IMG/VR virus record: IMGVR_UViG_3300026519_000056
Location: 1 to 26,679 of that record
Reading direction: 5' to 3' (one strand)
DNA length: 26,679 nt
DNA from: a virus
Shown: one piece after another, positions 2,022 through 22,373 of the stretch
How the letters are laid out: each line of letters begins with the position of its first letter
Numbering within the stretch: position 1 is the first letter of the stretch
The notes under the pieces: model-generated
Told to the model about the DNA's origin: nothing
Seen by the model: the letters and a program-made list of their open reading frames with translations, nothing else
The model's database searches: none
Program-made: the position numbers and the translations under genes

Positions 2022-2171
2022 GGCCTTACCCTTTCTGATGATTCTTTAGCTGATACGGCTATCATAATTACTTGTGTAGGGAAATATCACTTTTCAGTTG
2101 AAGCTACCATATATTGTGCGTTAGAAGGGCCGCATCGGAAGATTCGCCAAGACAAATGAGAGGAGCACCAC
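2022..2171. promoter_or_regulatory. divergent control region with two candidate promoters
   Basis: This AT-rich gap of 150 bp separates the minus-strand primase unit from the plus-strand early unit. On the minus strand, TATGAT (2061-2066) is a good -10 candidate. On the plus strand, TATATT (2110-2115) is a -10 candidate. The dyad at 2086-2102 lies where both -35 regions would fall, so one bound regulator could block both promoters. AGGAG lies just before the ATG at 2172. No transcript data are available; the promoters are judged by eye. Confidence 0.5.
2086..2102. promoter_or_regulatory. putative operator dyad O1 (ATCACT-N5-GTTGAA)
   Basis: Degenerate 17-bp dyad of the family TTCA[A/C]C-N5-G[T/G]TGA[A/T]. 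The 20 bases at 2083-2102 match the reverse complement of 15785-15804 at 19 of 20 positions, which ties two distant sites together. It lies between the two divergent -10 candidates. Confidence 0.55.
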
Positions 2172-2699
2172 ATGAGCCTGGAAGCTGCGATTGCGGAACT
2201 CACGGCCGCAGTCAGGGAAAACACCGAAGTTCACGCGAAGTTCGCAGAGATTGCCCGGACTGCATCGAAGTCGGCACAGCCCAAGAAAGCCGTCGATGAC
2301 GAAGCGTCTGAGGAGGCCAAGGCCGAGAAAAGCGAACCTCAGAAGAAGGCCGCATCGAAAAAGGCGGCTGCAAAAAAGAACGGAACCGCTCGGAAGCGGA
2401 AGCCGGTTGCGGTCAGGGGCGCGGTGGATGAGAGCGCAATTCGCCAGATTGCCCGGGCCTACCTCGACGGCGAAGACGAGGACGAACGCGAAGCGAAGAA
2501 GAAGAATGTGAGCGCGGCGTTCGAGCATCTCGGCGTGAAGAAGCTCAGCGACCTCGAAGACGACACCGAGCGGGCGAAACTGGCAGCCTATATCGCCCAT
2601 TGGGAGGCCGGGGCCAATCTCGGCTTCGACGCCATCGACGACCTCGTAGCCGAAGCTGCGGGGGACGATGACGAGGACATGGACGAAATGCTCGACTGA
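2172..2699 (+). CDS. early phage protein, Lys/Ala-rich middle with acidic C-terminal tail, function unknown
   Basis: A 175-residue protein with ATG and a good AGGAG site. It has a short N-terminal helix (1-35), then a histone H1-like Lys/Ala-rich stretch (about 38-78). A helical, Glu/Asp/Lys-rich domain follows (about 82-155), and the tail is strongly acidic and ends D-E-M-L-D. The split charge suggests nucleic acid contact in the middle and a protein-binding tail. The single-stranded DNA-binding protein at 4688-5278 ends in a similar acidic tail closing with L-L-D. It is the first gene of the plus-strand early unit. I do not recognise a family; a role in DNA organisation or replication is inference from composition and position. 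Confidence 0.75.
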   Translation: MSLEAAIAELTAAVRENTEVHAKFAEIARTASKSAQPKKAVDDEASEEAKAEKSEPQKKAASKKAAAKKNGTARKRKPVAVRGAVDESAIRQIARAYLDGEDEDEREAKKKNVSAAFEHLGVKKLSDLEDDTERAKLAAYIAHWEAGANLGFDAIDDLVAEAAGDDDEDMDEMLD

Positions 2700-2709
2700 C
2701 GAGCGCCTT

Positions 2710-2761
2710 GCGCGGGCACCCTACCCACACCTCTTCCTCCCTGAAACCGGGGTGCCCGCGC
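2710..2761 (+). other. 12-bp perfect inverted repeat with 28-nt pyrimidine-rich loop
   Basis: GCGCGGGCACCC (2710-2721) is the exact reverse complement of 2750-2761. It lies in the 83-bp gap between two early genes. No T-run follows, so it is not a canonical intrinsic terminator; an RNA processing, stability or attenuation element is possible. The hairpin at 5286-5323 is similar in placement, and its loop also contains a C-A-C-A-C/C-T-C-T stretch. Confidence 0.6.
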
Positions 2762-2782
2762 ACCAGCGCATCGAGACACAAG

Positions 2783-3478
2783 ATGAAACTCGTTGACACG
2801 AACCCGAAGACCCGTTTCGGAATGGCCAAGCCGGGCGTTGCAGACGTCCCGCCCGTAGCGCTGATCCATCTTGGACTTGCCATGCGTGACGGGGCGCAGA
2901 AATACGGCAGGGTCAACTACCGGGAGCATCCGGTGACGGCCTCCGTTTACTACGAAGCCGCTATGAGGCATCTGATGGCTTGGTGGGATGGCGAGGATAG
3001 CGCCGAGGATTCCGGCGTGCACCATCTCGGCCACGTCATGGCCTGCTGTGCCATTCTCCTAGACACCGAGGCGCAAGGGACCCTGAATGACGACCGCCCG
3101 AAACCGACCGGGCGCTTCGCCGAACTCATCGCGCAACTCACGGCCCCGATGAACGGGGCGGAAGGCGATCATTGGGCTTCCAGCATCGTCGATTCCCCTG
3201 CTGAGGCCTCGATGCTCGACCGAATTCTCGGCGGCTCTGAGGAACAGCGCGGCAACGAAGATGAGGACAAATGGGAAGAACCCGGCATTGATGAGTGTGT
3301 GAACGCGGTAAACCAGTGGCTCAACGATGCACAGAACCATGCTGAGGAAATCCGCCGGTCGAGCCTGCTGCATGACTGGCTGAACGAGAACGATGCGGCC
3401 TCGGTTTCCGACCTTGGAGAACCCTATCAGCGTGTGCTGTTCGCAAACTGGCTACGCCACCAAGGGGGGCGCATCTGA
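2783..3478 (+). CDS. dATP/dGTP pyrophosphohydrolase-like protein (DUF5664/MazG-related all-alpha fold)
   Basis: Start chosen at ATG 2783 because [13 protein letters not shown] opens the conserved domain. An in-frame TTG at 2708 would add 25 residues translated from the hairpin region, and this is unlikely. Residues 11-90 carry the family pattern: Gly-Ala-x-Lys-Tyr-Gly (37-42), E58, R62-H63, W67, G70-E71, E75-D76-S77-G78 and H80-H81, which are likely metal and substrate ligands. Relatives include phage MazZ, which hydrolyses purine dNTPs in Z-genome phages, but the family is much wider. The C-terminal half (about 100-231) is acidic, unrecognised and probably a separate domain. The protein probably adjusts nucleotide pools during replication. 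Its stop overlaps the next start (TGATG). No adenylosuccinate synthetase-like purZ is present in this window. Confidence 0.75.
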
Positions 3479-4632
3479 TGCCCTCGGCGCACGCCAGGCT
3501 TTCTCCTTCTGCCGCACACCGTTGGCTCCGCTGCCCGGGATCGGTGGGCTTGTGCGAAACACTCGGAGAGGACCGCAGCAGCGAGTTCGCCGCCGAGGGG
3601 ACAGTGGCCCATCATATCCGGGAATCCTGTCTGGCCTTCGGCTTCGAGCCAGAGGAATTTCTCGGCCAAACCATCAAGGCCGACGGGTTCGAGTTCGAAG
3701 TTACGGAAGAGATGGTCGAGGCGCTGCGCCCAGGGATCGAGTGGGTTCGTGAACGCCCCGGGCGCGTCGTGAACGAGATGCGCGTCTCATTCGACCGCTG
3801 GCTACCGGGGCAGTTCGGAACGCTGGACGTGGGGATCATCTCAGACGACCTCATCACCATTAACGACCTGAAATACGGCGCAGGCGTCCCCGTCTCGCCC
3901 GAGCACAACGAGCAGCTTATGACCTACGCGCTCGGGTTCTGGGATAATGTCGCCCGGTTCGAGACCGACGCGACCGAGTTCCTCCTTGTCATCGACCAAC
4001 CCCGGGCGCAGGGCGGCGGCGGGGAGTGGCAGGTATCGCTCGACGAGTTGCTGGAATTCGGCACAACCCTTGAGGCGGGATACGAGGCCGTTCACAGCGA
4101 CGATCCAGCCCTCAACGCCGGGGAAAAGCAGTGCCGCTTCTGCCCCGCGAAAGGCATCTGCCCGGAACTGGCCCGCTTCAATCTGGAACTCATGGGCTCC
4201 AAGTTCGACGATCTGGACGGTGACGAACTCCAGCTGAACGATGCCGACACCATGACCCCTGACAGGCTGGCGAAGGTTGTGCTGAACTCCGACATGATCC
4301 GTCGGTGGCTCGATTCCGTGCACGCCAAGGTGCTCGCCGACACCCTGTCAGGCAACCCGCCGCCAGGCATCAAGGCGGTCAGGGGCCGCAGGGGAGTCAA
4401 GAAATGGATCGACGAGAAGGCGGCAGAGGAATTCCTGTCGAAGTCCCTCGGCCCGTCAGAGATGTTCCACCCGAAGAAGCTTATCTCGCCCGCGCAGGCC
4501 GAGAAAAAACTACCCCCCGACAAATCCGAGCGCCTCGAACGCTTCTGGACGCAAGCGGAAGGAAAACCCGTCCTGGTTCCCGAGGACGACAAGCGCCCCG
4601 CAATCAGCCAGGCAGACAAGTTCGACGACTAG
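3478..4632 (+). CDS. DUF2800 protein, Cas4/RecB-like PD-(D/E)XK nuclease
   Basis: A 384-residue phage protein of the DUF2800 type. The N-terminus has the family start ([10 protein letters not shown], with C19 and C26). The nuclease core shows G-T-L-D117 and D130-L-K132, the D...DxK pattern of PD-(D/E)XK enzymes. A cysteine cluster C219-x2-C222-x5-C228 with an N-terminal Cys fits a Cas4-like Fe-S site. The C-terminal about 120 residues resemble the rest of the family, with no separate domain recognised. It probably processes DNA ends during phage recombination or replication. It is translationally coupled to the upstream gene and precedes the DUF2815 gene, its usual partner in phage replication cassettes. 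Confidence 0.85.
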
Positions 4633-4645
4633 CCATGCCCGGATA

Positions 4646-4662
4646 TTCACCAAAAACGTAAA
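4646..4662. promoter_or_regulatory. weak putative operator dyad O2 (TTCACC-N5-CGTAAA)
   Basis: The left half-site TTCACC is perfect, but the right half matches GGTGAA at only 4 of 6. It lies in the 55-bp leader of the ssDNA-binding protein gene, and a further half-site TCAAC is at 4666-4670. This is the weakest member of the dyad family and may be only a half-site. Confidence 0.3.
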
Positions 4663-4687
4663 CCGTCAACCGAAGAAAGGAAACGAC

Positions 4688-5278
4688 ATGGCAACCGAGA
4701 AAGACCCCCGCGAGGTTTACCTCAAGAACGTCCGGCTTTCTTACCCGCATCTGACCGAAAAGCAGAAGGCGACCGAGGACGCGACACCGAAGTATTCGGC
4801 GGCCTTCCTGATCGACCCCTCGACCAAGGTCGGAAGGCAGAACATCAAGCGCATCAAGGCGGCGATGGCGGCAGCCGAGGAACAGGCGTTCAAGAAGACC
4901 GGCCTGCGCTACAAGGATGACCGCATCTGCTTCAAGGACGGCAACGAGTGCTACAATCAGAACGGCGACGTGAAGGACGGCTACGAGGACATGATGGTCC
5001 TCCGGGCCTCCAACCCCAACCCGATCACCCTGCTGCACCGCAACAAGAAGACCGTCGATCCCGACAATTCGCCCTTCTACGGCGGCTGCTATGTCGAGGC
5101 CATTGTCCGGCTCTACGGCACCAAGAAGGGCGGCGCCCCCGGCCTGTTTGCGAGCCTGGAAGCCGTGCGTTTCTGGGAGGATGGCGAGCACTTCGGCAGC
5201 CCGCCCGTGGGTGCCGACGCTTTCGATGACGACGACGAGGAGGACGATTTCGACGAAGACGACGACCTCCTCGACTGA
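4688..5278 (+). CDS. DUF2815 family single-stranded DNA-binding protein (T7 gp2.5-like)
   Basis: A 196-residue protein with ATG and an AAGGAAA-type site just upstream. The N-terminal V-x-L-K-N-V-R-L-S-Y-P opening, the central Y-K-D segment and the G-G-C-Y-V-E-A-I-V-R-L-Y strand (about 135-146) are typical of DUF2815 proteins, which are OB-fold ssDNA-binding proteins related to T7 gp2.5. The last about 20 residues are almost all Asp/Glu and end in L-L-D, the expected C-terminal tail that contacts polymerase and helicase partners. It would coat single strands during replication and recombination. It is flanked by the DUF2800 nuclease and the methyltransferase/polymerase genes, with hairpins in the gaps. 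Confidence 0.88.
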   Translation: MATEKDPREVYLKNVRLSYPHLTEKQKATEDATPKYSAAFLIDPSTKVGRQNIKRIKAAMAAAEEQAFKKTGLRYKDDRICFKDGNECYNQNGDVKDGYEDMMVLRASNPNPITLLHRNKKTVDPDNSPFYGGCYVEAIVRLYGTKKGGAPGLFASLEAVRFWEDGEHFGSPPVGADAFDDDDEEDDFDEDDDLLD

Positions 5279-5285
5279 CCGGAAC

Positions 5286-5323
5286 GGGCGCGGTTTGCCA
5301 CCACTCACACTCTGACCGCGCCC
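5286..5323 (+). other. 9-bp perfect inverted repeat after the SSB gene
   Basis: GGGCGCGGT (5286-5294) pairs exactly with 5315-5323, with a 20-nt loop that is mostly C, A and T. It lies in the 74-bp gap before the methyltransferase gene. No T-run follows. It could modulate read-through or protect the abundant SSB message; compare the hairpin at 2710-2761. Confidence 0.55.
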
Positions 5324-5352
5324 ACTATCCCCCGCGAGGCGCCGGACGACCG

Positions 5353-6378
5353 ATGACGGCCTACTACAACGAGAATGATCCAGAGGCAGCAGCCGTCCTG
5401 CGGGAGTTGATCAAGGTCGGCCTCATCGCACAGGGCGAGGTCGATGACCGCAGCATTCGGGAGGTCGATCCGAGAGACCTCGCGGGGTTCACCCAATGTC
5501 ATTTCTTCGCGGGGATCGGCGTCTGGAGCTACGCCTTGCGTCTGGCAGACTGGCCGGACGACAGCCCTGCCTGGACCGGCTCATGCCCGTGCCAGCCTTT
5601 TTCATCCGCCGGAAAACGCAAGGGAACCGAAGATGACCGCCACCTTTGGCCCGTATGGTTCGACCTCATCCGAGAGTGCCAGCCTGTCGTCGTATTTGGC
5701 GAACAGGTTGCGTCGAAGGACGGCCTCGGTTGGCTCGACCTTGTATCGGCTGACCTGGAAGCAGCGGACTACGCCCTCGGGACGACCGATCTTTGCGCTG
5801 CGGGCGTCGGTGCACCGCATATCCGCCAGCGGCTCTTTTTCGGGGCCTACCATCGCCGATCTGCCCTGCCGGGGCTGGGCCACCACGACCGCGCGGGATG
5901 GCTCTCGCGGAACGCTGCCGCCCCGACCGACCGACGCGGGAGTTCCGCTGGATCAGATGGCCGCGCTGGCGGGCTGGGTCACGGCGTCGGCGCGGGACTG
6001 GAAGGACACGCCCGGCATGGCGACGGAGGCGGTGAACCCGGACGGATCGAAGCGAAAGCGAGTGGATCAGCTGCCCCGACAGGCGCTGCTGGCCCTGGGC
6101 ACCCCGGTCCGACGAACGGCTTCTGGAGAGATGCTGACTGGCTCCTCTGCCGGGATGGAAGGTGGCGCCCCGTTGAACCCGGAACATTCCCGCTGGCTAA
6201 TGGGTCTCCCGCCCGCGTGGGGCTTTTGCGCTGCTATGGCAATGCAATCGTTCCCGAGGTCGCAAAGGCGTTCATCTGTGATTTCCGGGACGCCTTCCAT
6301 GCGCTCAAGGACACCGACGCCTTCCTCGAAGGTTACGGTGAAAGAGCTTCTGAGCTAGAGGCCCGCGATGCCGATTGA
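5353..6378 (+). CDS. dcm: phage C5-cytosine DNA methyltransferase
   Basis: A 341-residue protein. Motif I is F52-A-G-I-G56, motif IV is P79-C80-Q-P-F-S84 with C80 the catalytic nucleophile, motif VIII is R158-Q-R160, and motif X is G296-N-A-I. The motif VI triplet is E117-Q118-V119 rather than the textbook E-N-V, a form I associate with phage members of the family. The target recognition region lies between motifs VIII and X (about 165-250) and in this frame is Gly/Arg/Ala-rich and poorly structured. Over 5860-6100 another frame has better third-position GC (see 5633-6358). The C-terminus, W-R-P-V-E-P-G-T-F-P-L-A and beyond, again looks authentic. It likely protects phage DNA from host restriction. 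No partner restriction enzyme is visible. The gene overlaps the polymerase start by 11 bp. Confidence 0.85.
   Translation: MTAYYNENDPEAAAVLRELIKVGLIAQGEVDDRSIREVDPRDLAGFTQCHFFAGIGVWSYALRLADWPDDSPAWTGSCPCQPFSSAGKRKGTEDDRHLWPVWFDLIRECQPVVVFGEQVASKDGLGWLDLVSADLEAADYALGTTDLCAAGVGAPHIRQRLFFGAYHRRSALPGLGHHDRAGWLSRNAAAPTDRRGSSAGSDGRAGGLGHGVGAGLEGHARHGDGGGEPGRIEAKASGSAAPTGAAGPGHPGPTNGFWRDADWLLCRDGRWRPVEPGTFPLANGSPARVGLLRCYGNAIVPEVAKAFICDFRDAFHALKDTDAFLEGYGERASELEARDAD
5633..6358 (+). CDS. putative overprinted ORF within dcm (+1 frame)
   Basis: A 241-codon frame lies wholly inside the methyltransferase gene. ATG 5633 is preceded at 7 bp by AAGGGA (5620-5625). The product contains L-T-W-K-Q-R-T-T-P-S-G-R, A-L-R-A-S, G-W-A-T-T-T-A-R-D, A-R-D-W-K-D-T-P-G-M, D-Q-L-P-R-Q-A and L-N-P-E-H-S-R-W-L-M-G, a pattern I recall from many phage proteins annotated as methyltransferase-related. 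Third codon positions are very GC-rich between about 5860 and 6100, more so than in the methyltransferase frame. Either both frames are translated, or the recognition domain was moved out of frame by two compensating shifts, or frame 2 is a shadow of conserved frame 1. Function unknown. Confidence 0.4.
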   Translation: MTATFGPYGSTSSESASLSSYLANRLRRRTASVGSTLYRLTWKQRTTPSGRPIFALRASVHRISASGSFSGPTIADLPCRGWATTTARDGSRGTLPPRPTDAGVPLDQMAALAGWVTASARDWKDTPGMATEAVNPDGSKRKRVDQLPRQALLALGTPVRRTASGEMLTGSSAGMEGGAPLNPEHSRWLMGLPPAWGFCAAMAMQSFPRSQRRSSVISGTPSMRSRTPTPSSKVTVKELLS

Positions 6379-8494: not shown

Positions 8495-8497
8495 GGA

Positions 8498-10510: not shown

Positions 10511-11206
10511 GTGGCACAAGAAACGACCGCCGAATTCGGATACAGGCTGACCCAGGCCCTGGAGGGACACCCTCATGCGCCCCCAACCCCTTTCGGGCGA
10601 CTGACCTGGTTGAAGCGTGAGCTGGAGAAGGTCGCGGGCGTCAAGGTCAGCGTCAATACGGTGCATAAATGGGTCCACGGCACCAGCCGCCCACGAGAAG
10701 ATAATGTGCGGGCTCTGGCGAAGGTCCTGAAGGTTGATGAGGTCTGGCTGTCGATGGGCCGGAAGCCCGTCGAGACAGAAAATGCGCCGCCAGTTGCCGC
10801 GACGGCCCGAGGCCCCGCCCTTTTGGTGGCTGGCCTGATCGAGGTCTCGGGAGGACGAGTTACCTTTCCAGATGCCGGATCGGGGGAAACTCCCCACCTG
10901 TGGGCCAATATCGGCGACAAGCAATTCGGCATTATCGCCGTGACTCCCCAGAGCGACGACGGCGAGAAGGTTTCGTTCGTGATCCCCGAACCCATAGCTG
11001 AGCATCGGGTTCTCGGGGTGGTCCAGGCCGCAGCTTCTACGCCGGGTATCTGTGTATCCATTCTCGACTTGACCGGGGTCGAGCGCCAGTCATTCGGCGG
11101 GTTCTCGGTCGTTCAACTGGAGCGTCGCAAGGGCGGCCGCTACAAGGCACAGGGCCATAGGAAACTCCTTGAAACCCTCAGCCGGATAGAGGAAGTGACG
11201 CCCTGA
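10511..11206 (+). CDS. HTH-domain phage regulator, candidate repressor
   Basis: 231 residues from GTG 10511 with GAGG a few bases upstream. The N-terminal about 80 residues look like an XRE/CI-type DNA-binding domain, with a long first helix and then a recognition segment containing S-V-N-T-V-H-K-W-V-H-G-T-S-R-P and V-R-A-L-A-K-V-L-K-V. The C-terminal 140 residues are Val/Gly-rich and beta-like. They show no S24/LexA Ser-Lys protease pattern, so RecA-driven self-cleavage is not supported. It lies between early and integrase genes and directly downstream of the best operator dyad, which makes it the prime candidate to bind the dispersed dyads. That link is inference. Confidence 0.75.
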   Translation: MAQETTAEFGYRLTQALEGHPHAPPTPFGRLTWLKRELEKVAGVKVSVNTVHKWVHGTSRPREDNVRALAKVLKVDEVWLSMGRKPVETENAPPVAATARGPALLVAGLIEVSGGRVTFPDAGSGETPHLWANIGDKQFGIIAVTPQSDDGEKVSFVIPEPIAEHRVLGVVQAAASTPGICVSILDLTGVERQSFGGFSVVQLERRKGGRYKAQGHRKLLETLSRIEEVTP

Positions 11207-11210
11207 GAAA

Positions 11211-11336: not shown

Positions 11337-11353
11337 TTCAACGCCTTGTTGAC
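11337..11353. promoter_or_regulatory. putative operator dyad O4 (TTCAAC-N5-GTTGAC)
   Basis: Eleven of twelve arm positions match the perfect palindrome. It overlaps TTGACA (11349-11354), a consensus -35 hexamer on the plus strand that could serve the integrase gene, although no good -10 is obvious at 17 bp. Confidence 0.5.
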
Positions 11354-11415
11354 AGGCGGGAACCGAAGCGCATTGCACGGAACTGCCCGATTTACCCCTG
11401 AAATGAAGCGATTTT

Positions 11416-11505: not shown

Positions 11506-12711
11506 ATGCTGACAGACAAACAGATTCGATCCGCGAAACCCTCAGACCGCCTCTACCGCATGGCCGACGGCGGTGGCCTTTTCCTCGCCATCCACCCGAG
11601 CGGGCGCAAGACGTTTCAATTGATGTTCCGCGCCCAGGGGAAACAGACGACCCGAACCTTGGGGGAATACCCGGACCTGACGCTGGCCGATGCCCGCTTC
11701 GAAAGGGAGGCCATCAAGCGCCGGTTGCGGCGCGGAGAATGCCCGCCTGAGTTGGTTAAACGATCCCATACCTCGCCCGATCAGCCCGAGATCGTTCCCG
11801 AAAGGAGCTGGGCGCAGTGGATGCGTCGCTACCTGACGAAACGGCGGCGCGAAGGGGCGGCCCCCGCGACGATGAAAAAACTGGAGCTTCACGCAGAAAT
11901 CGCGGGAAAGGTGCTTGATGACATGGACCCCCGCGAAATCAAGGCAGGGCACATCATCGAAGCCTGTCGCCATTACGAAGAGAAGGGGATGCTGAATTCA
12001 GCCCATGCCGTGCGCGCCCTCTGTTCGCAGGTATTCCGTTTCTGCATCGCGCATGGGGCAGCGGATTTCGACCCGGCCGCTCCAGCGCGGGACGCAATCG
12101 CCCGCCCCCGCAACACGGGTTACGCAGGCGTGACGGACCCGAAACGGATCGGGGAACTCATGCTGGCAATCCAGCGCTACCAGGGCGATCCGGTGGTGCG
12201 GGTGGGCCTGCTGCTCTCGGCTTACCTGTTCCCACGCAACGGCGAAATCAGGCGCATGACCTGGGGTCAGATCGACTTTGACAAGGCGCTCTGGACTGTT
12301 CCCGCGGCCCAGATGAAGAAAAAGCGAGAGCATCTTGTCCCGCTCCCGAGACAGGCGCTCGACCAGCTGGCCTGGCTGCGTCAACTGACCGGACGGGAAG
12401 AACTCGTGCTCCACTCCCGAACCTCCAACAGCGGTATTCTTTCGGAGAACACCTTCAACCAGGCTCTGCGCAAGATCGGTTTCGGCCCGCAAGAGCATGT
12501 TCACCACGGGTTCAGGATCACCGCATCGACGATCCTCAACGAACAGGGTTGGAATTCCGACTGGATCGAACGGCAACTGGCCCATGTCGAGGAAAACAAG
12601 ATCAGGGGCGCCTACAACAAGGCTCTCTATCTGCGCGACCGGGCTCTGATGATGCAGGCCTACGCCGACTGGTTGGACGAACGGGCGGAAGAAGCGGAAA
12701 TTCGGGGGTAG
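11506..12711 (+). CDS. int: tyrosine recombinase / phage integrase (DUF4102 N-terminus)
   Basis: A 401-residue P4-like integrase with AAAGG before the ATG. The N-terminal about 80 residues are the DUF4102 arm-binding type (L-T-D-K-Q-I-R-S-A-K-P, L-F-L-A-I-H-P-S-G-R-K). A core-binding domain follows at about 100-190. Catalytic residues visible are R244 (in F-P-R-N-G-E-I-R), H334-x2-R337, H360 and the nucleophile Y370 (G-A-Y-N-K). It would integrate and, with a directionality factor, excise the phage. It is flanked by early and late modules instead of lying at one end, so in this sequence it is not beside a host junction. Its stop codon is inside a strong hairpin. Confidence 0.93.
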   Translation: MLTDKQIRSAKPSDRLYRMADGGGLFLAIHPSGRKTFQLMFRAQGKQTTRTLGEYPDLTLADARFEREAIKRRLRRGECPPELVKRSHTSPDQPEIVPERSWAQWMRRYLTKRRREGAAPATMKKLELHAEIAGKVLDDMDPREIKAGHIIEACRHYEEKGMLNSAHAVRALCSQVFRFCIAHGAADFDPAAPARDAIARPRNTGYAGVTDPKRIGELMLAIQRYQGDPVVRVGLLLSAYLFPRNGEIRRMTWGQIDFDKALWTVPAAQMKKKREHLVPLPRQALDQLAWLRQLTGREELVLHSRTSNSGILSENTFNQALRKIGFGPQEHVHHGFRITASTILNEQGWNSDWIERQLAHVEENKIRGAYNKALYLRDRALMMQAYADWLDERAEEAEIRG

Positions 12712-12764: not shown

Positions 12765-12830
12765 TTGGCGGGCGACCCGCCGACGGCAAATTGGCATGAG
12801 CCAACGGCACAATCAACTTTCAACTTGTTT
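12765..12830. other. two further short hairpins and half-sites; candidate cos or control region
   Basis: GGCGGG/CCCGCC (12767-12772 with 12776-12781) and TTGGC/GCCAA (12791-12795 with 12800-12804) follow the big inverted repeat. Two direct TCAAC half-sites (12813-12817, 12820-12824) come next. In lambda-like phages the cos site lies just before the small terminase gene, so this structured gap is a reasonable place to look for it. No cohesive-end sequence can be proven here. Confidence 0.35.
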
Positions 12831-12847
12831 TTCACCTTTTGGGTGAT
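12831..12847. promoter_or_regulatory. putative operator dyad O5 (TTCACC-N5-GGTGAT) before the late unit
   Basis: It is almost symmetric. TTGTTT lies immediately upstream (12825-12830) and AATAAT (12850-12855) downstream, so the dyad would sit between candidate -35 and -10 elements of the packaging unit. The ATG of the AlpA-like gene follows 45 bp later. Confidence 0.5.
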
Positions 12848-12891: not shown

Positions 12892-13116
12892 ATGTCCAGA
12901 CAAGACCGCAAAAAGGGGGCCGCCGGGAACGATCCTGTCGTGTTTATTGGCGTTGGCGAAGTTGCGCGCAGGATCGGGCTGTCCAGCAGGACGATCTACA
13001 AATGGGCCGATTCGGGTCTGTTCCCGAAACCAGTCAAACTCTCCCCGACCCGAATCGCTTTCATCGAATCTGAAATCCAGGCGTGGCAGGAGGCCCGGAT
13101 CGCGGAGCGGGCATGA
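12892..13116 (+). CDS. AlpA-like small HTH protein
   Basis: A 74-residue protein. Residues 22-60 form the MerR-like winged HTH typical of the AlpA family (V-G-E-V-A-R-R-I-G-L-S-S-R-T-I-Y-K-W-A, then G-L-F-P-K-P-V-K-L). Its Lys/Arg-rich N-terminus may add DNA contact. Such proteins act as activators or excisionases in P4- and lambda-like elements. Its location between integrase and terminase, with its stop overlapping the terminase start (ATGA), fits either a directionality factor or a DNA-recognition helper for packaging. I cannot decide between them. Confidence 0.8.
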   Translation: MSRQDRKKGAAGNDPVVFIGVGEVARRIGLSSRTIYKWADSGLFPKPVKLSPTRIAFIESEIQAWQEARIAERA

Positions 13117-13766: not shown

Positions 13767-15837
13767 GTTTCAGACGCTGGAGGAGATGGTCCTGGCAACG
13801 GCGGAAGCCGTGCGCCCGCCCGAACGTCTGACCGTTGCCCAAGCGGCGGAAAAATACCGCTACATCAACAATCCTGGCTCCTATGTCGGCCCGTTCAGAA
13901 ACGACACGACCCCCTATCTGGTGCAGCCGATGGAGGTGCTGACCTCTGTCGATTTCACGGGGATGATCTTTGTCGGCCCAGCCCAGTGCGGCAAGAGCGA
14001 CATGAGCCTGAACTGGCTCACCTATTCGGCAGTTTGCGATCCGGCCGATTTCATGCACATCGACAAATCGCAATCCTCGGCGCGCGACTTCTACCAGCGG
14101 CGCGTCGAAAAACTGTTTCGGGACACCGCGGCAGTGCGCGAACGTCTCCTGCCGGGCAAGCACCACCAGTCCACCTATTCCACGAAATTTACCAGCGGGA
14201 TGCTCTACACCCTTTCCTGGCCGACCGTGAACGAGCTTTCGGGCAAGCCTGTCGGGCGGCTCTGGCTGGCGGACTATGACCGGATGGATCAGGACATTGG
14301 CGGTGAAGGCTCGCCTTACGACCTTGCGGTGCAGCGAATGAAGACCTTCGGCCGCTTCGGCATGTGCGCGGCGGAATCCTCGCCCTCCCGCCCGATCGAG
14401 AATTCCCGCTGGATGCCGCAGTCGCCGCATCAGGCACCACCGACCACCGGCATTCTGGCGCTCTACAATCGCGGCGACCGGCGACGGTGGTATTGGCCCT
14501 GTGTGGCTTGCGGCTCCCCGTTCGAGCCAGACTTCTCGCTTTTCGAGTGGCCCGACAGCGAGGACCCGCTGGAAGCAGCCGAGCAGGTTGTCATGCGCTG
14601 CCCGCATTGCTCGCACCCCTACCGGGACACGACGCACGACGACACCGGAACGCCGGGCAAACGCGCAATGAACAAGCGCGGCTTCTGGCTACGCGACGGT
14701 GAGCAGTTTGTCCCGGATACCGGTGAGATTGCAGGAACACCGGTTCGCTCCCGGATCGCCTCGTTCTGGCTGAAGGGTCCGGCAGCCGCGTTCGCCGACT
14801 GGACGGATATGACGCTGAAATACCTCAAGGCGGTCCAGGAATTCGAGGCAACAGGCTCTGAAGAGGCCCTCAAGACTACGGTGAACACCGATCAGGCCCT
14901 GCCCTACCTGCCCGCAGGAGTCGAGGCCGAACGGCTTCCCGAGGAATTGAAGGCCCGCGCTCGGGATTTCGGCGAGAAGGTGGTGCCGGAGGGCGTCCGA
15001 TTCCTGCTGGCCACGGTGGACGTGCAAAAGAGCCGGTTCGAGTGCCAGGTCCACGGGATTGGAGAACACGGCGATGTGTGGATCATCGACCGGTTCAAGA
15101 TCAGGAAATCGGCGAGACTTGACGAGGACGACGACCCGCTGCCCCTGAATCCAGGCGCCTATGTCGAAGACTGGCACCTGCTGACAGACCAGGTTTTGCT
15201 GCGCCAGTATGAGCTCGGCGATGGCTCGGGCCGCAAGATGCAGGTCCGCATGATGGCTGTGGACTCGGGCGGGCGCGAGGGCGTGACCGCGAATGCCTAC
15301 GAATACTGGCGCCAGTTGCGTAAGGATGGACAGAACCTGCACCGGCGGGTGCAGTTGCTCAAGGGTGAGCACCGGGCGTCGGCACCTCTTGTGCGAATCG
15401 ACTACCCGGATGCGGAACGCAAGGATCGCCGCGCGCAGGCCCGGGGCGAAGTGCCGGTCATGTTCATCAACTCGAACGCCGCCAAGGACATGGTGAACAA
15501 CATGCTCGCCCGCGCCGAACCGGGTGGCGGAATGGTGCATTTTCCAGACTGGCTGCCGGACTGGTGGTATGTCGAGCTGACCGCCGAGACCAAGACCGCA
15601 AAGGGCTGGGTAAACCCTGGCAAGGCGCGCAATGAAGCCTGGGATTTGCTGGTTTATTGCATGGCACTGGCTCATTCGAGCAAGGTCAGGCTCCCGCACA
15701 TCGACTGGGAGAATCCGCCAAGTTGGGCCGCTCCCTGGGACGAAAACGATTTGGTGTCGGAGGGAAATAACTTTCGGTTTGATTTTCAACCGAAAAGTGA
15801 TATTAGCTTGCGAAAACTGGCTGAAACCCTTGGCTAG
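13759..15837 (+). CDS. large terminase subunit, lambda GpA family
   Basis: 692 residues from ATG 13759, overlapping the small subunit by 8 bp. ATPase: Walker A G73-P-A-Q-C-G-K79-S80, and a likely Walker B region L-A-D172-Y-D174. Two Cys pairs, C248-x2-C251 and C281-x2-C284, form a predicted zinc site, as in many GpA relatives. The RNase H-like nuclease has acidic residues D421 (in A-T-V-D-V), D502 (A-V-D-S-G-G) and D629 (E-A-W-D). It cuts concatemeric DNA and drives it into the prohead through the portal. The last about 20 codons are unusually AT-rich and carry the dyad at 15785-15801. Confidence 0.93.
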   Translation: MGRFQTLEEMVLATAEAVRPPERLTVAQAAEKYRYINNPGSYVGPFRNDTTPYLVQPMEVLTSVDFTGMIFVGPAQCGKSDMSLNWLTYSAVCDPADFMHIDKSQSSARDFYQRRVEKLFRDTAAVRERLLPGKHHQSTYSTKFTSGMLYTLSWPTVNELSGKPVGRLWLADYDRMDQDIGGEGSPYDLAVQRMKTFGRFGMCAAESSPSRPIENSRWMPQSPHQAPPTTGILALYNRGDRRRWYWPCVACGSPFEPDFSLFEWPDSEDPLEAAEQVVMRCPHCSHPYRDTTHDDTGTPGKRAMNKRGFWLRDGEQFVPDTGEIAGTPVRSRIASFWLKGPAAAFADWTDMTLKYLKAVQEFEATGSEEALKTTVNTDQALPYLPAGVEAERLPEELKARARDFGEKVVPEGVRFLLATVDVQKSRFECQVHGIGEHGDVWIIDRFKIRKSARLDEDDDPLPLNPGAYVEDWHLLTDQVLLRQYELGDGSGRKMQVRMMAVDSGGREGVTANAYEYWRQLRKDGQNLHRRVQLLKGEHRASAPLVRIDYPDAERKDRRAQARGEVPVMFINSNAAKDMVNNMLARAEPGGGMVHFPDWLPDWWYVELTAETKTAKGWVNPGKARNEAWDLLVYCMALAHSSKVRLPHIDWENPPSWAAPWDENDLVSEGNNFRFDFQPKSDISLRKLAETLG
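15785..15801. promoter_or_regulatory. putative operator dyad O6 inside the 3' end of terL
   Basis: TTCAAC-CGAAA-AGTGAT. The surrounding 15767-15820 is conspicuously AT-rich for this gene, as if codon choice were bent to keep a DNA site. It shares 19 of 20 bases with 2083-2102 in reverse orientation. It lies about 50 bp before the gpW gene. Confidence 0.5.
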
Positions 15838-15849
15838 GGAGACACTCCC

Positions 15850-16056
15850 GTGACGCTCCAAGAGCAACTCGACGAAGCAAAGGCCCAATACCACCTGCTC
15901 GTGACCGGGCAGGCGGCACGGGTCTTCGTCGATCAGAACGGCGAGCGCATTGAATACGTTGCTGCGAATGCCGGACGACTTGCCGCCTATATCGACCGCC
16001 TTGGGCGCCAGGTTGCGGGGACCGTGAACAAGGGTCCAATGCGGGTCTGGATGTGA
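15850..16056 (+). CDS. gpW-like head-tail joining protein
   Basis: A 68-residue protein starting at GTG 15850. It shows the typical gpW pattern: an N-terminal helix (L-Q-E-Q-L-D-E-A-K-A-Q-Y-H), a short beta hairpin (R-V-F-V-D-Q-N-G-E-R-I-E-Y), then a second helix (A-Y-I-D-R-L-G-R-Q-V). It caps the DNA-filled head below the portal. Length and position between terL and portal match lambda W. The stop overlaps the portal start (TGATG). Confidence 0.88.
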   Translation: MTLQEQLDEAKAQYHLLVTGQAARVFVDQNGERIEYVAANAGRLAAYIDRLGRQVAGTVNKGPMRVWM

Positions 16057-17699: not shown

Positions 17700-17701
17700 A
17701 A

Positions 17702-18970
17702 ATGCCTGAAACGCAATGTGATATTCTGCTGGTGAACCCTGAACGGGTCGAACTCGTCGAAGCGGCGTTGCACCGGTTCAAGACGGGTATTTTCCCGAGT
17801 GAGCAAGCCTCGCTGCCGCCCGTATCAGCGGACCGAAATGATGGGTCCGACGATGGCTTCTGGGATGACCCGGAACTGGCCTGGGCACGTCCCTATACTG
17901 TGCGGTCCGGCAGTCTGGTCATCCCGGTCAGCGGCGTGTTGCTGAAAGACTTCCCCTACACGTTGAAGGGCATCGTCACCGGTTATGAATACATCGGGGC
18001 TGCGCTCTCGCGCGGCCTTGCCGACCCTGGTGTGGGCCGCATCGTGCTGGACATTGATTCCCCTGGGGGTCTTGTCGGCGGCCTTTTCGACCTTGCGGAC
18101 CGGGTTTACTACGCCAGGAGCGAAAAGCCCATTGTCGCGGTCGCAAACGAGCACGCCTATTCGGCGGCCTATGCAATCGCATCCGCTGCGAGCGAGATCA
18201 CCGTCGCGCGCACGGGTGGTGTCGGCTCCGTCGGCGTCGTCGTCACGCATGTGGACGTGAGCAAGGCGCTGGAAAGCGAAGGCGTGCGGATCACGTTCGT
18301 TCACGCGGGTAAGCGGAAGATGGACGGAAACCCCTACCAGGCCCTCTCGGAGCGCGCGCGAAACAGCATCCAGTCCCGAGTGAACGCCATCTATGACATT
18401 TTCGTCGCCACCGTGGCGCGGAACCGCGGCATGGGCGAGGAGGCTGTCCGCCAGACGGAAGCAGCCATCTTCCTGCCGCATGAAGCCATCGAGGTCGGTT
18501 TTGCCGACAGGATCGGCAGCCTCGATGAAACCCTGTCGGCCTTTGCCGAACCTGTCACCAGAAAAGGAGATGACACCATGTCCAAGGACAACTCGGCGGT
18601 CGAAGAAACCGCCCACGAGGAAGCCCTGGCCGCTGCTCGGGCCGAAGGCGTCGAAGCCGGTAAGGCGGCAGGCGCCGAAGCGGAGCGCGCCCGAATTGGC
18701 GCGATCCTCGACAGCGACGAGGCGAAATCGCGCCCCGCAGCGGCGCGTCAGGTCGCGCTGAGAACCGGCCTGTCGGTCGAGGACGCCAGGGCGTTTCTGA
18801 CCGGGCTGCCGGAGGAGAAGAGCGAGGAAAACCCCGGCTCCATGTTCGTCGCGTCGATGAACGGCGACGAGCACCCGAACCTCGGTGCCGGTGCCGACAA
18901 CCCGAGCACCGACGCCGAAGACCGCGTGACCCGCGCCTTCGCGGCCGTTGGCGTCCGCTACGAGCAGTAA
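17702..18970 (+). CDS. S49 family prohead protease with C-terminal scaffold region (lambda gpC-like)
   Basis: 422 residues from ATG 17702, with AAGGA upstream. The serine protease core includes the I-D-S-P-G-G oxyanion loop, catalytic S154 in H-A-Y-S-A-A-Y, and K206 in G-K-R-K-M-D-G-N-P-Y as the likely general base. After about residue 292 the protein becomes Ala/Glu-rich and helical, as in scaffold proteins. In lambda the 3' part of gene C is also expressed alone as Nu3; the same layout is present here (see 18578-18970). It acts inside the prohead and processes head proteins. Confidence 0.92.
   Translation: MPETQCDILLVNPERVELVEAALHRFKTGIFPSEQASLPPVSADRNDGSDDGFWDDPELAWARPYTVRSGSLVIPVSGVLLKDFPYTLKGIVTGYEYIGAALSRGLADPGVGRIVLDIDSPGGLVGGLFDLADRVYYARSEKPIVAVANEHAYSAAYAIASAASEITVARTGGVGSVGVVVTHVDVSKALESEGVRITFVHAGKRKMDGNPYQALSERARNSIQSRVNAIYDIFVATVARNRGMGEEAVRQTEAAIFLPHEAIEVGFADRIGSLDETLSAFAEPVTRKGDDTMSKDNSAVEETAHEEALAAARAEGVEAGKAAGAEAERARIGAILDSDEAKSRPAAARQVALRTGLSVEDARAFLTGLPEEKSEENPGSMFVASMNGDEHPNLGAGADNPSTDAEDRVTRAFAAVGVRYEQ
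18578..18970 (+). CDS. nested in-frame scaffolding protein (Nu3-like)
   Basis: An internal ATG at codon 293 of the protease gene is preceded by AAGGAG (18564-18569) at an 8-base spacing, the best ribosome binding site in this gene. The 130-residue product is acidic, Ala/Glu-rich and coiled-coil-like at its start, and ends with a helical segment (V-T-R-A-F-A-A-V-G-V-R-Y). This reproduces the lambda C/Nu3 overlap, in which free scaffold is made in excess of protease. No direct proof of initiation is available. Confidence 0.65.
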   Translation: MSKDNSAVEETAHEEALAAARAEGVEAGKAAGAEAERARIGAILDSDEAKSRPAAARQVALRTGLSVEDARAFLTGLPEEKSEENPGSMFVASMNGDEHPNLGAGADNPSTDAEDRVTRAFAAVGVRYEQ

Positions 18971-18994
18971 CGCAATCAGAACTGGAGAAACGAC

Positions 18995-19432
18995 ATGCCT
19001 ATCACTCCCCAGAACGGCGACCTGAACGCCGGTGTGGCCGCCCACAGCAGCGAGGTCATCAACCCGTCCCCCGATCCGCTCATCACCGGAGACGCTCCTG
19101 CGCTGTCGGCGACTGATGAGGTCGTGGCTACCGGTGTCGTCCTGCCCGCGCTGAGCGTGGTCGGCTTCGACGCCAATGGTGAGATCGTCGAGGCCCTGAT
19201 CGACACCGCCAACCCGGCCAACTCGATCCAGGCCATCGGGGTGCTCGTCTATGACGTGGACGCTTCGGGTGGCGCGGTCGGTGCTGCGGTTTACCGCCAG
19301 GGTGTCCTGAACCCCGACCGGCTGAACTGGCACGCCTCCTTCGCCACCGATGCGGATAAGCGCAAGGCCTTCGAAGGCGCGCCGTCGCCTACCTCGATCA
19401 TCCTGCGCAAGCCCGTGTGGAACTCGGTCTGA
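18995..19432 (+). CDS. head decoration protein, lambda gpD-like
   Basis: 145 residues with a GGAGAAA-type site before the ATG. It is beta-rich, with the C-terminal signature of gpD proteins: N-P-D-R-L-N-W, then T-D-A-D-K-R-K-A-F-E-G and a hydrophobic end. Trimers of such proteins clamp the expanded capsid at three-fold points. Its place between protease/scaffold and major capsid genes equals lambda D. Confidence 0.9.
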   Translation: MPITPQNGDLNAGVAAHSSEVINPSPDPLITGDAPALSATDEVVATGVVLPALSVVGFDANGEIVEALIDTANPANSIQAIGVLVYDVDASGGAVGAAVYRQGVLNPDRLNWHASFATDADKRKAFEGAPSPTSIILRKPVWNSV

Positions 19433-19470
19433 TCGCGGGACACTGAAACATAAGCACAAGGAAACAGGAA

Positions 19471-20559
19471 ATGCCTCTCGACATTTTCACGCCGCATGAA
19501 CTCTACAGGATCATGTTCGGCCCCAACCAGCAGGTTTCGACCTCCCGCTGGCGCACCATGTTCTTCCGGCCCGAAGCCTTCTATTCGGAGCAGGAAGAAA
19601 TCATGTTCGACAAGATCGACGCCTCGCGCCCCATCGCACCGTTCGTTCTGCCGAACGTCCCGGGCAAGCCGATCTTCCGCCGCGAGGGCGAGCGGATCGA
19701 GACCTTCAAGCCCGCCTACACCAAGGTCAAGGACGCGGTGAAGCCCGGCGAGGCGCTGTCCAAGCGCCCGGGTGAGCTGACGGGCCGTCTGCAACTGATG
19801 ACCCCGCAGCAGCGGTTCGATGCCGACGTGGTGAAGATCACGCGCTTCCATCGGGCTGCCATCGAGCGGCTGTGGGAGTATATGTCGGCCCGTGCCCTGA
19901 TCGACGGCCAGCTGACCATCAACTACCTGAACGACACCGGCCTGCCCACGAAATCCGTGACCATCGACTACGGTCGCGACCCCGGCCACACGGTCACGCT
20001 AGGCTCTGGTAGCCGGTGGGGCGACGCCGGGGTTGATCCGTTCAAGGACATTCAGTCCTGGATCGACACGGTGGCCATGGCTGAATTCGGCGGCAACGTG
20101 TCTGATGTGATCATGGGCGCCCAGGCGGCCTCGGTGTTCATGGAGGCCCCGGGCGTAACCAAGAAGCTCGACACCAACGTGCGCGGCACCGAAGCCGTCC
20201 GGCTGGAACAGGGGATCATCCGGCAGGACCCGATGGACCCGTTCACCCTGCTGGGCACGCTGGGCAGCGGGGTGCGCGTCTGGCGCGTCGCCGGTCGCGG
20301 CAACACGTTCCAGAACAACGACGGCACCTTCACCGACATTCTCGGTCAGAAACAGGTTCTGCTGGTCTCTCCGAGCGTCGAGGGCGTCCAGTGCTTCGGG
20401 GCGATCCAGGACGTGGCCTATGAGCTGCAAGCGACGGACATTTTCACCAAGATGTTCGACCAGGAGGACCCGAGCGCCCGCTTCATCCTCTCGCAGTCTG
20501 CTCCGCTGCCGGTGATTGTGAACCCGAACGCGACGTTCCTCGCCAACGTGCTGGCGTAA
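19471..20559 (+). CDS. major capsid protein, lambda gpE family
   Basis: A 362-residue HK97-fold major capsid protein of the gpE group, close to the lambda length of 341. Family features include the opening D-I-F-T-P-H-E-L, a basic/aromatic segment around F-F-R-P-E-A-F-Y, the central E-R-L-W-E-Y-M-S-A-R-A-L, and P-L-P-V-I-V-N-P-N-A near the end. AAACAGGAA precedes the ATG. It is followed by a strong hairpin (20569-20590), consistent with very high expression of this message. Confidence 0.94.
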   Translation: MPLDIFTPHELYRIMFGPNQQVSTSRWRTMFFRPEAFYSEQEEIMFDKIDASRPIAPFVLPNVPGKPIFRREGERIETFKPAYTKVKDAVKPGEALSKRPGELTGRLQLMTPQQRFDADVVKITRFHRAAIERLWEYMSARALIDGQLTINYLNDTGLPTKSVTIDYGRDPGHTVTLGSGSRWGDAGVDPFKDIQSWIDTVAMAEFGGNVSDVIMGAQAASVFMEAPGVTKKLDTNVRGTEAVRLEQGIIRQDPMDPFTLLGTLGSGVRVWRVAGRGNTFQNNDGTFTDILGQKQVLLVSPSVEGVQCFGAIQDVAYELQATDIFTKMFDQEDPSARFILSQSAPLPVIVNPNATFLANVLA

Positions 20560-20568
20560 GCACCATCC

Positions 20569-20590
20569 GCCCGGGCATTCGCGCCCGGGC
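20569..20590 (+). terminator. hairpin after the major capsid gene
   Basis: GCCCGGGC (20569-20576), a 6-nt loop, then GCCCGGGC (20583-20590) followed by TATTTC. It has an 8-bp GC stem but only a weak T-tract, so partial termination or mRNA 3'-end protection is likely. Tail genes continue downstream. Confidence 0.6.
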
Positions 20591-20623
20591 TATTTCACCT
20601 GAAACAGGAAAGAGGAGCCTATA

Positions 20624-20866
20624 ATGAAACTCAAGGCCGTTCACCGCATCATCCGCAAGAAGGGTATTATCGAGCCGAACGAGGAGTTCGACTGCTCGAC
20701 GGACGAAGCCAACGACTACCTCGCGCTTGGCGCCGCGGTCGAGGTCGCTTCGGCGAAGCCCGCCCGTAAGACCAAGGCCCGGAAAGCCGCCGGGAAAGAG
20801 CCGGAAGTCGTCGCCACCGATGGTGCGGATACGACGTCTGGCAACCAGGACGAACTTCTCGGCTGA
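20624..20866 (+). CDS. small FI-position head protein, unknown function
   Basis: An 80-residue protein with AGAGGAG before the ATG. The N-terminal half is a small beta-like domain (V-H-R-I-I-R-K-K-G-I-I-E-P-N-E-E-F), resembling short phage proteins that follow capsid genes. The C-terminal half is Lys/Ala- and then Asp/Glu-rich and disordered. It is in the lambda FI position but is shorter and not clearly homologous. Its stop is 2 bp before the next start. Confidence 0.75.
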   Translation: MKLKAVHRIIRKKGIIEPNEEFDCSTDEANDYLALGAAVEVASAKPARKTKARKAAGKEPEVVATDGADTTSGNQDELLG

Positions 20867-20868
20867 AC

Positions 20869-21246
20869 ATGGCTATCCGGGACCTCAGAAACCGGGCACG
20901 GGCGGACCTGCACAGGGCAATGTCGATCCCCGCGATCTACGTCGCCCCGGACGGGACCGCCCAGACCCCCTGCACGATCCGAGTCCATGCCCGGACCAAG
21001 GCGTTCGGCGACATGACCGGATTCGACTACGCCCCGGCCGAGCGCATCGAGATCGTCCCGGAAATTATCACTCTCGCCGACGAAGTGACCCCTTCTCGCG
21101 GCGGCATGTTTTCGGTGGCAACGGATGAAGCCTACACGGTCGAAGTCGTCATGCCCCGCGACGGGATCACCGTGACCTCGCAGGTCACGCGCATGAGTGC
21201 GTCAGAGGTTTCTGCGGCCGGGCTACCCGTCCCGGCGGTGGTGTAG
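20869..21246 (+). CDS. FII-like head-tail connector protein
   Basis: A 125-residue beta-rich protein. The order after the capsid gene and the size (lambda FII is 117 residues) support a head-tail attachment role. The opening L-R-N-R-A-R-A-D-L-H-R-A-M-S-I-P-A-I-Y and the strands I-E-I-V-P-E-I-I-T and Y-T-V-E-V-V-M-P-R-D-G fit this class, but I rely mostly on position. It would bind the gpW end of the head and the tail terminator. Confidence 0.65.
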   Translation: MAIRDLRNRARADLHRAMSIPAIYVAPDGTAQTPCTIRVHARTKAFGDMTGFDYAPAERIEIVPEIITLADEVTPSRGGMFSVATDEAYTVEVVMPRDGITVTSQVTRMSASEVSAAGLPVPAVV

Positions 21247-21249
21247 ATC

Positions 21250-21858
21250 ATGGTATCGGCAACCATATCCCCGGATGGTCTGGCTTATGTGGTCGCGGTC
21301 GAGGGCCTTGATGCTATCGACCTTGACACGGTTCCGGCAAAGATCAGGCAATTCGCCGTGCGCTCGATCAACACCACGGCGCGTAGGTTTCGAACCGAAT
21401 CGAGCCGCCGCATCCGTCAGCAAGTTGCCTTCCCGGCGCGGTATCTGGACTCCCGCACAGACGGCAATCTTCGCATCACCCGCAACGCTACGGCCGATGC
21501 CATGCAAGCCGTCATTCAGGGCCGCTTTCGACCCACCAGCCTTGCCCGTTTCGTCAAGGGGCCGCGCACGGGTGGGCGACGCGCGCCCACGGTCGAAGTT
21601 GCTCCCGGCAACCGGCAGAAGATGAACCGCGCCTTCCTGATGAACCTGCGGTCGGGGAATGTCGGCCTCGCAGTCCGGCTTCGCCCGGGCGAGCGGATCG
21701 AGAACAAACGCAAGATGGTCCAGATCGACAGCGGCCTTTACCTGCTTTACGGCCCGAGTGTCGATCAGGTTTTTCGGAAAGTCTCGGAGGAGGTTTCAGG
21801 CGAAGCCGCCGCCTTCCTCGAAAAGGAATTCCTCAGAATGACGGAGGCACTTCTGTGA
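21250..21858 (+). CDS. minor tail protein Z-like
   Basis: A 202-residue, Arg-rich protein in the lambda Z position. The N-terminal R-S-I-N-T-T-A-R-R-F-R-T-E-S-S-R-R-I-R-Q-Q-V and the R-Y-L-D-S-R element are typical of gpZ family proteins, as is the C-terminal V-D-Q-V-F-R-K-V. It would help finish the head-proximal tail end. The start is 3 bp after the preceding stop, and the stop overlaps the next start. Confidence 0.82.
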   Translation: MVSATISPDGLAYVVAVEGLDAIDLDTVPAKIRQFAVRSINTTARRFRTESSRRIRQQVAFPARYLDSRTDGNLRITRNATADAMQAVIQGRFRPTSLARFVKGPRTGGRRAPTVEVAPGNRQKMNRAFLMNLRSGNVGLAVRLRPGERIENKRKMVQIDSGLYLLYGPSVDQVFRKVSEEVSGEAAAFLEKEFLRMTEALL

Positions 21859-22349
21859 TCGACTCGTTCAAGCTCAAGGTGCTGAAAGCCCTGACCTCGG
21901 CGCTGGAAGAGATCACTGTCGCCAACGGCTATCAGCACGATCTCGCTGGTCGCGTGCACCGCGGCAGGCTCTTGTTCACGCAGGAGGACGGCCTCCCGCA
22001 TCTTGCCATCAACGAACCTCCGCAGATGCCGGACGGTATCGTTGCACCGGACGGCTCGCCGTCGCACTTTACCAAGCACCCCCTGCTCATTCAGGGTTTC
22101 GTCGAAGATGACCGGCAAAACCCGACAGACCCTGCCTATCTGCTGCTCGCAGACGTTCAAAAACGCCTCGCCATCGAAAGAACCCGAGGCAGAGGATACG
22201 ACATTCTGGGTTTCGGAGATCGCATTCATGCACTCCGCATCGGCCAGGCTGTCGTTCGCCCGCCGGATGCCGTTGTCTCGGACAACAGTTTCTTCTGGCT
22301 TCCCGTAACCCTGGAATACGCAGAGGAGCTGCAAAATCCCTTTGCGTGA
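21855..22349 (+). CDS. tail terminator-position protein (gpU-like)
   Basis: 164 residues starting at GTG 21855, which overlaps the gpZ stop (GTGA). It has an N-terminal helix (F-K-L-K-V-L-K-A-L-T-S-A-L-E-E-I) followed by beta strands, including L-L-I-Q-G-F-V-E-D and F-F-W-L-P-V-T-L-E-Y. This alpha/beta layout and its position before the tail tube gene match phage tail terminators. Sequence identity to lambda U is not evident, so the call is mainly positional. Confidence 0.65.
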   Translation: MIDSFKLKVLKALTSALEEITVANGYQHDLAGRVHRGRLLFTQEDGLPHLAINEPPQMPDGIVAPDGSPSHFTKHPLLIQGFVEDDRQNPTDPAYLLLADVQKRLAIERTRGRGYDILGFGDRIHALRIGQAVVRPPDAVVSDNSFFWLPVTLEYAEELQNPFA

Positions 22350-22356
22350 TCCGATA

Positions 22357-22373
22357 TTCACCTATAAGGTGAT
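22357..22373. promoter_or_regulatory. putative operator dyad O7 (TTCACC-N5-GGTGAT) before the tail tube gene
   Basis: This near-perfect dyad lies in a 52-bp gap. Its spacer contains TATAA, giving TATAAG (22363-22368) as a -10 candidate, with TTTGCG (22341-22346) as a weak -35. A bound protein would cover this promoter. The flanks also repeat GATATT on both sides. Confidence 0.55.

Follow-up and report, generated by a model that had tools for sequence, protein, structure and literature searches.

Dispersed 17-bp dyads as candidate operators of a CI-like repressor in temperate Casjensviridae phages

Why would a phage keep copies of one short inverted repeat in almost half of its longer noncoding gaps? 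The question is raised by a 26,679-nt viral sequence (IMG/VR record IMGVR_UViG_3300026519_000056, positions 1 to 26,679), which we analyzed as a whole and refer to as the window. It makes up the entire contig C94 of a Rhodobacteraceae-type metagenome-assembled genome (MAG) and, judged by its genes and their relatives, belongs to a temperate Casjensviridae phage. An earlier, sequence-only reading of the window had listed seven dyads of the form TTCA[A/C]C-N5-G[T/G]TGA[A/T] and suggested that they make up a dispersed operator network. Sequence comparisons indicate that the dyads are almost certainly bound by a lambda-repressor-like protein that the phage itself encodes. We further propose, with a probability of roughly 0.78, that they would serve as operators of a CI-like repressor encoded at 10511–11206 (hereafter the regulator), silencing the prophage at early promoters and through stoperator-like roadblocks.

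Dyads in the window

All seven dyads lie where the sequence-only reading had placed them, each with the same 5-bp spacer (Table 1). Six occupy noncoding gaps, as it had said, and fill 6 of the 13 window gaps of at least 17 bp; the seventh (15785) is the one inside a gene, at the 3' end of terL. Its observation that two distant copies agree in 19 of 20 bases is exact (2083–2102 versus the inverted 15785–15804). Note that conservation of the 15785 dyad is confounded, because the terL peptide encoded there is itself partly conserved.

The dyads are far more frequent than composition predicts. With up to one mismatch allowed, the pattern matches 13 times over both strands, at 8 distinct places, where 0.58 matches would be expected, and none of 100 dinucleotide shuffles reached 13. 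The noncoding gaps hold six sites, compared with 0.15 in shuffled sequence (0 of 500 shuffles reached six). Furthermore, a weight matrix built from phages of Achromobacter, Klebsiella, and Sinorhizobium alone, the window being kept out of the training, was used to rank all window positions, and its top six are six of the seven listed dyads. The list was less secure at its margin: the dyad at 4646 is degenerate, with two mismatches, and falls outside the top 14, and the position ranked seventh (TTCCCCTACACGTTGAA at 17951–17967, within an S49 protease gene) had been left out. Good sites do occupy the position of the 4646 dyad in DSS3-P1 and in the genomes G398 and G399.

Recurrence of the dyads in related phages

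The same dyad was recovered without reference to the window. A de novo search for inverted repeats in the gaps of five relatives, given no motif, ranked it first in each (as CAAC-N5-GTTG or TCAA-N7-TTGA), with 9 copies in AchV4, 12 in KPN N133 (KPN), 9 in RHph_X2_30 (RHph), 7 in SS2019XI, and 6 in PS6; shuffle maxima were 3 to 5. The hosts of these phages are Achromobacter, Klebsiella, Sinorhizobium, Pseudomonas, and Marinobacter. The window-derived dyad is ~13 to 26 times denser in noncoding than in coding DNA in six genomes that carry the regulator, and five times denser in a seventh. Whole-record counts peak at exactly the 5-bp spacer in 12 regulator-bearing records (the window, DSS3-P1, V16, AchV4, KPN, RHph, SS2019XI, G398, G399, G406, G409, and G410), with 10 to 33 copies, several times the mean of other spacers; the partial 26.7-kb window has 10. 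No such peak was found in 11 regulator-less genomes, which have 1 to 8 copies, the 8 of Nazgul all being in coding sequence. Noncoding matches numbered zero in the regulator-less phages pCB2051-A, Nazgul, Chi, and S-ESS1.

Placement is conserved as well. The DSS3-P1 motif (DTCAMC-N5-GKTGAY) occurs at syntenic places, nearly every regulator gene has a site 5' of it, and a dyad stands in the tail-tube gap in the window, DSS3-P1, V16, G398, G399, L022-L024, L027, AchV4, KPN, RHph, SS2019XI, G406, G409, and G410. Within genes, dyads are somewhat commoner than expected in AchV4, KPN, and RHph (8, 4, and 5 versus ~1) and scarcely so elsewhere; sites in coding sequence, that at 15785 excepted, were left uncounted.

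The proposal of a dispersed operator network therefore survived the comparisons that its authors had named as able to overturn it, namely noncoding against coding density, shuffled sequence, and conservation in related phages. The motif is short, and some coding matches are expected by chance; even so, that the dyads arose by chance or from the composition of the window is vanishingly improbable, and already refuted by the shuffles, the recovery in five independent genomes, and the ranking of six sites first to sixth by a matrix from other phages.

Two further loci carry the dyad. Contig C31 (6310 b) of the same MAG has a good copy (TTCACCTAAAAGATGAT at 5443–5459) between two open frames, overlapping a possible ATG start; a DSS3-P1 tail protein has a homologue on this contig, which may come from the same phage as the window. 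A genome from the same family has a chromosomal locus (G331:C1, near 284374) that combines a 55%-identical regulator with five dyads in 40 kb and is probably an integrated relative. Our literature searches, which could not reach most subscription journals, found no report of these sites. The papers on AchV4 (PMC7996906) and AH2 (PMC3483164) recognize CI-like regulator genes and leave operators unreported.

The candidate binding protein

Which protein reads the dyads? The sequence-only reading had put forward three candidates, the products of 10511–11206, 1716–2021, and 12892–13116. Co-occurrence and co-divergence single out the first, and the other two are weakened. The regulator and the network are both missing from seven near-full-length IMG genomes and from pCB2051-A, Nazgul, Chi, and S-ESS1. 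On a TerL tree, regulator presence requires four changes (at least three forced), and the sites follow the regulator: the regulator-less pCB2051-A joins AchV4 and KPN, and the regulator-less Nazgul joins AH2 and SS2019XI.

As far as sequence can tell, the letters of the sites also shift along with the recognition helix of the regulator. Phages with the helix S-H/P-E-A-V-R-K-W have TTCAAC sites. The Burkholderia phage AH2 (S-Q-E-G-V-R-K-W) has a shifted network, ACAAC-N5-GTTGT, with eight noncoding copies and one coding copy; position 2 of the half-site is A in 11 of 12 AH2 arms, compared with T in 56 of 60 arms of AchV4, KPN, and RHph. SS2019XI and PS6 (T/S-Q-E-A-V-R) show mixed letters at that position. 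In the clade of the window, DSS3-P1, G398, and G399 (N-T/A-V/M-H/S-K-W), position 5 is C about as often as A, or more often.

A different binder (an AlpA/excisionase-like protein, the primase-adjacent helix-turn-helix (HTH) protein, a ParB-like protein, or a host regulator) has in its favor the presence of several small genes for DNA-binding proteins close to sites, and the joint occurrence of the regulator with integrase and excisionase genes. We consider it quite improbable: tblastn finds no AlpA in the networked KPN, SS2019XI, AH2, PS6, G406, and G410, and small regulators next to the primase are also annotated in the network-less Chi (gp3) and S-ESS1 (gp03). ParB centromere sites were rejected, as Nazgul has a ParB-like gene and zero noncoding sites. 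A host factor was likewise rejected: the hosts of phages with the motif include alpha-, beta-, and gammaproteobacteria, and the rest of the host MAG shows no enrichment of it, the exact pattern occurring at 12 distinct places in the remaining ~2.62 Mb and at three in the 26.7-kb phage.

The regulator resembles CI-type repressors in its first half and has an unusual second half. At the N terminus it has an XRE HTH domain (Pfam HTH_3, 29.6 bits versus a cut-off of 23; eight of nine homologues match), and in a fold search the model of this domain matched the DNA-binding domains of both TP901-1 CI and P22 c2. A Pfam scan of the window regulator, C-terminal domain included, found nothing outside HTH families. 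Modeled separately with AlphaFold, the C-terminal domain (window 10784–11206; predicted template modeling (pTM) score, 0.80) weakly but consistently matches PD-(D/E)XK nuclease folds, among them Hjc, the SPARDA nuclease, EcoRV, and I-Ssp6803I (TM scores of 0.4 to 0.5, E values not below 5e-3). By eye, the catalytic residues of that fold seem missing in the regulator alignment. A nuclease fold of this type dimerizes in Hjc, and with low confidence we suggest from the model that the C-terminal domain is a dead-nuclease fold serving dimerization. S24/LexA domains are not among the fold matches listed for this domain, nor are mycobacteriophage repressors among the Protein Data Bank matches listed for the regulator. 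RecA-driven cleavage induction is not indicated, since no self-cleaving S24 domain was detected.

The phage context is that of a lysogeny module. The tyrosine integrase, the regulator, and the AlpA-like gene sit between the replication and packaging modules. The window terminase is 81% identical to that of Ruegeria phage DSS3-P1, which has the same gene order, and a 97% relative of it is found in 'Rhodobacteraceae bacterium isolate S139_41'. The window is incomplete at both ends, with a VapE-like primase at the left and, at the right, a large open frame beyond the pre-tape-measure gene. The window regulator had no match in IMG/VR, and the 1716–2021 product had none in Pfam, PHROG, or NCBIfam.

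Table 1. Dyads and selected genes of the window (SSB, single-stranded DNA-binding protein).
Feature	Position	Strand	Context or proposed role	Evidence
Dyad ATCACTTTTCAGTTGAA	2086–2102		Divergent early gap; covers -35 of leftward promoter-like match (2090–2061)	Matrix rank 3
Weak dyad TTCACCAAAAACGTAAA	4646–4662		Precedes SSB gene; further half-site GTCAAC 19 bp on (4665)	Outside matrix top 14
Perfect dyad TTCAACTACCTGTTGAA	10437–10453		5' of regulator gene	Matrix rank 1
Dyad TTCAACGCCTTGTTGAC	11337–11353		Gap between regulator and integrase	Matrix rank 5
Dyad TTCACCTTTTGGGTGAT	12831–12847		5' of AlpA-like gene and packaging operon; weak dyad at 12819 overlaps	Matrix rank 4
Dyad TTCAACCGAAAAGTGAT	15785–15801		Within 3' end of terL, ~65 nt 5' of gpW	Matrix rank 6
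Dyad TTCACCTATAAGGTGAT	22357–22373		52-bp gap 5' of tail-tube gene	Matrix rank 2
XRE/CI-type regulator, 231 aa	10511–11206	+	Proposed binder and repressor	Pfam HTH_3 above cut-off; PHROG 2967 transcriptional regulator; models; fold search; co-occurrence
Tyrosine integrase	11506–12711	+	Marker of temperate phage	
AlpA-like excisionase/regulator	12892–13116	+	Disfavored as binder	
Small gene adjoining primase	1716–2021	-	Disfavored as binder of entire network	

Site placement, proposed silencing, and known systems

How might such sites act? Codirectional gaps hold 118 of the 147 noncoding sites mapped across eight genomes; of the others, 26 fall between divergent genes and 3 between convergent ones. 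About one-third of the codirectional sites end at most 20 nt from the next start codon, some overlapping the start, and in KPN the 47-bp gap 5' of the tail tube is filled by two sites. Overlap with sigma70-like promoters is no more frequent than chance would give (21 of 96 sites versus 16.8 expected), and a search for -35 or -10 elements at a constant distance from the sites came up empty. Sites also tend to stand in pairs: a centre-to-centre spacing of 19 bp accounts for 51 pairs against a mean of 5.8 per spacing (~9 times commoner), and this preference holds in DSS3-P1, AchV4, KPN, RHph, SS2019XI, PS6, and AH2. Such an excess is expected for dimers bound side by side. The RHph relative G409 prefers a 20-bp spacing and G406 prefers 12, so that pairing geometry may differ by clade.

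These placements bear on two other accounts of the dyads. The regulator or a partner could be a timing activator, with dyads 5' of middle or late promoters, as for P2 Ogr and Mu C. Functional units do have sites in front, and the late region is poor in sigma70-like promoters, as activated promoters would be (the window late region has two sites and zero sigma70-like matches). Sites so close to start codons, however, leave no space for a downstream promoter; sites also recur within operons and in divergent early gaps, a fixed downstream -10 signal is absent, and regulator-less phages have the same gene order without sites. We therefore regard an activator as unlikely. The second account makes the dyads RNA hairpins that act as terminators or ribosome-binding-site switches, and many palindromes do lie near start codons and could form short hairpins. 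Yet the half-sites vary independently of each other (AAC occurs with GGTGA, CAC with GTTGA), which fits a protein dimer on DNA rather than an RNA hairpin and leaves many sites unable to pair. Conservation across phages is of letters, not of pairing, and divergent gaps are served too, making an RNA role very improbable.

For the favored CI-like repressor, we envisage a regulator dimer that would place one HTH on each half-site TTCA[A/C]C, with adjacent dimers cooperating where operators stand 19 bp apart. Early transcription and the amount of repressor would be set by sites in the divergent early region and beside the regulator's own gene. Further sites, in short gaps within the operons for replication, packaging, and the tail, would stop RNA polymerase during elongation or prevent it from initiating locally. 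The outcome would be a prophage that is silent throughout and superinfecting relatives that are held down. Binding by the 231-aa regulator, dimerization, cooperativity, repression, and roadblocking are all inferred from sequence. RcD-cluster phages such as RcPescado, which have a homologue of the regulator, form cloudy plaques and superinfection-resistant lysogens (PMC8601537), and the resistance of these lysogens indirectly supports a repressor role for the regulator family.

Several observations weigh against this proposal. On the laboratory host of AchV4, plaques were clear and stable lysogens did not form (PMC7996906). RcPescado, whose regulator is diverged (helix S-E-T-V-R-K-W-N), offers a weak case, with a handful of possible TTCAC-N7-GTGAA sites, one of them 5' of the regulator. 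The PS6 dyads are significant in noncoding DNA only, not across the whole record. The promoter consensus applied may miss alphaproteobacterial and phage promoters, which makes the lack of association between sites and promoters a weak result. Lastly, because regulator and integrase genes co-occur, co-occurrence alone is compatible with a second protein of the lysogeny module as the binder.

Known systems offer partial parallels. Cluster A mycobacteriophages (L5 Gp71, TipsytheTRex repressor) have ~20 to 30 repressor sites genome-wide, at early promoters and in short intergenic spaces; the L5 sites are 13 bp, asymmetric, and direction-bound, and are contacted by a monomer with an HTH and a Stoperator domain (PMC9283540, PMC6550527). 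The likeness to L5 drawn by the sequence-only reading holds for the dispersed, mostly short intergenic sites (10 to 33 copies), for letters that co-diverge with the repressor, and for a site by the repressor gene. It does not extend to the 17-bp symmetric dyads, often in 19-bp pairs, or to the XRE/CI protein with its unrelated C-terminal domain. L5 stoperators are the nearest functional model, with elongation block assumed by analogy, and the Casjensviridae network is not a member of that family; we use 'stoperator' as an analogy.

Phage P1 C1 likewise serves as one immunity repressor with many 17-bp operators (22) across the genome, but these are asymmetric (ATTGCTCTAATAAATTT) and unlike the Casjensviridae dyads in sequence (PMC8546580). 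In SPbeta, the master repressor MrpR (YopR) also silences a large prophage via a repeated intergenic element, SPBRE; MrpR, however, adopts the fold of tyrosine recombinases and has a motif of 15 bp (PMC10516654), whereas the Casjensviridae regulator is an XRE HTH protein. T1-like phages (T1, Stevie, TLS) have ~16 to 21 intergenic repeats that have been likened to stoperators, but these are asymmetric and 21 to 22 bp long, in lytic phages with no known binder (PMC4319613, PMC11447400).

The protein itself resembles the CI-type repressors of lambda, P22, 186, and TP901-1, with which it shares an XRE HTH, 17-bp dyad operators, close operator pairs, and dyads near its own gene and the early region. 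The operators of those repressors are clustered in one or a few control regions. The Casjensviridae network differs in having 10 to 33 copies scattered over the genome, and in its regulator we detected no C-terminal S24 peptidase domain of the kind present in the self-cleaving LexA/S24 repressors of lambda and 434. The authors of the AH2 paper matched AH2 gp70 to 186 CI (PMC3483164).

A fuller version of our proposal goes further than we would readily bet on: a temperate Casjensviridae silencing system with a dead PD-(D/E)XK dimerization domain and 15 to 30 symmetric operators arranged as cooperating 19-bp pairs would act mainly as an elongation roadblock inside operons, and operator letters and recognition helix would co-evolve, giving rise to diverse immunity types among phages of proteobacteria.

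Only a few phage groups (L5-like phages, P1, and SPbeta) have had their dispersed repressor sites characterized, and the version described here has symmetric operators. It occurs in temperate members of a widespread family that is usually called lytic, with hosts from Rhodobacteraceae to Klebsiella and Pseudomonas. The dyads provide a sequence test for Casjensviridae with an immunity system, which is useful when choosing therapy phages, and the natural pairs of shifted specificity are material for studying repressor-operator co-evolution. With this family, the stoperator idea can also be tried in Gram-negative bacteria, using simple reporters. Taken at the level of sequence, our findings point to a little-noticed mode of silencing, in which a whole viral genome may be held shut at many points.

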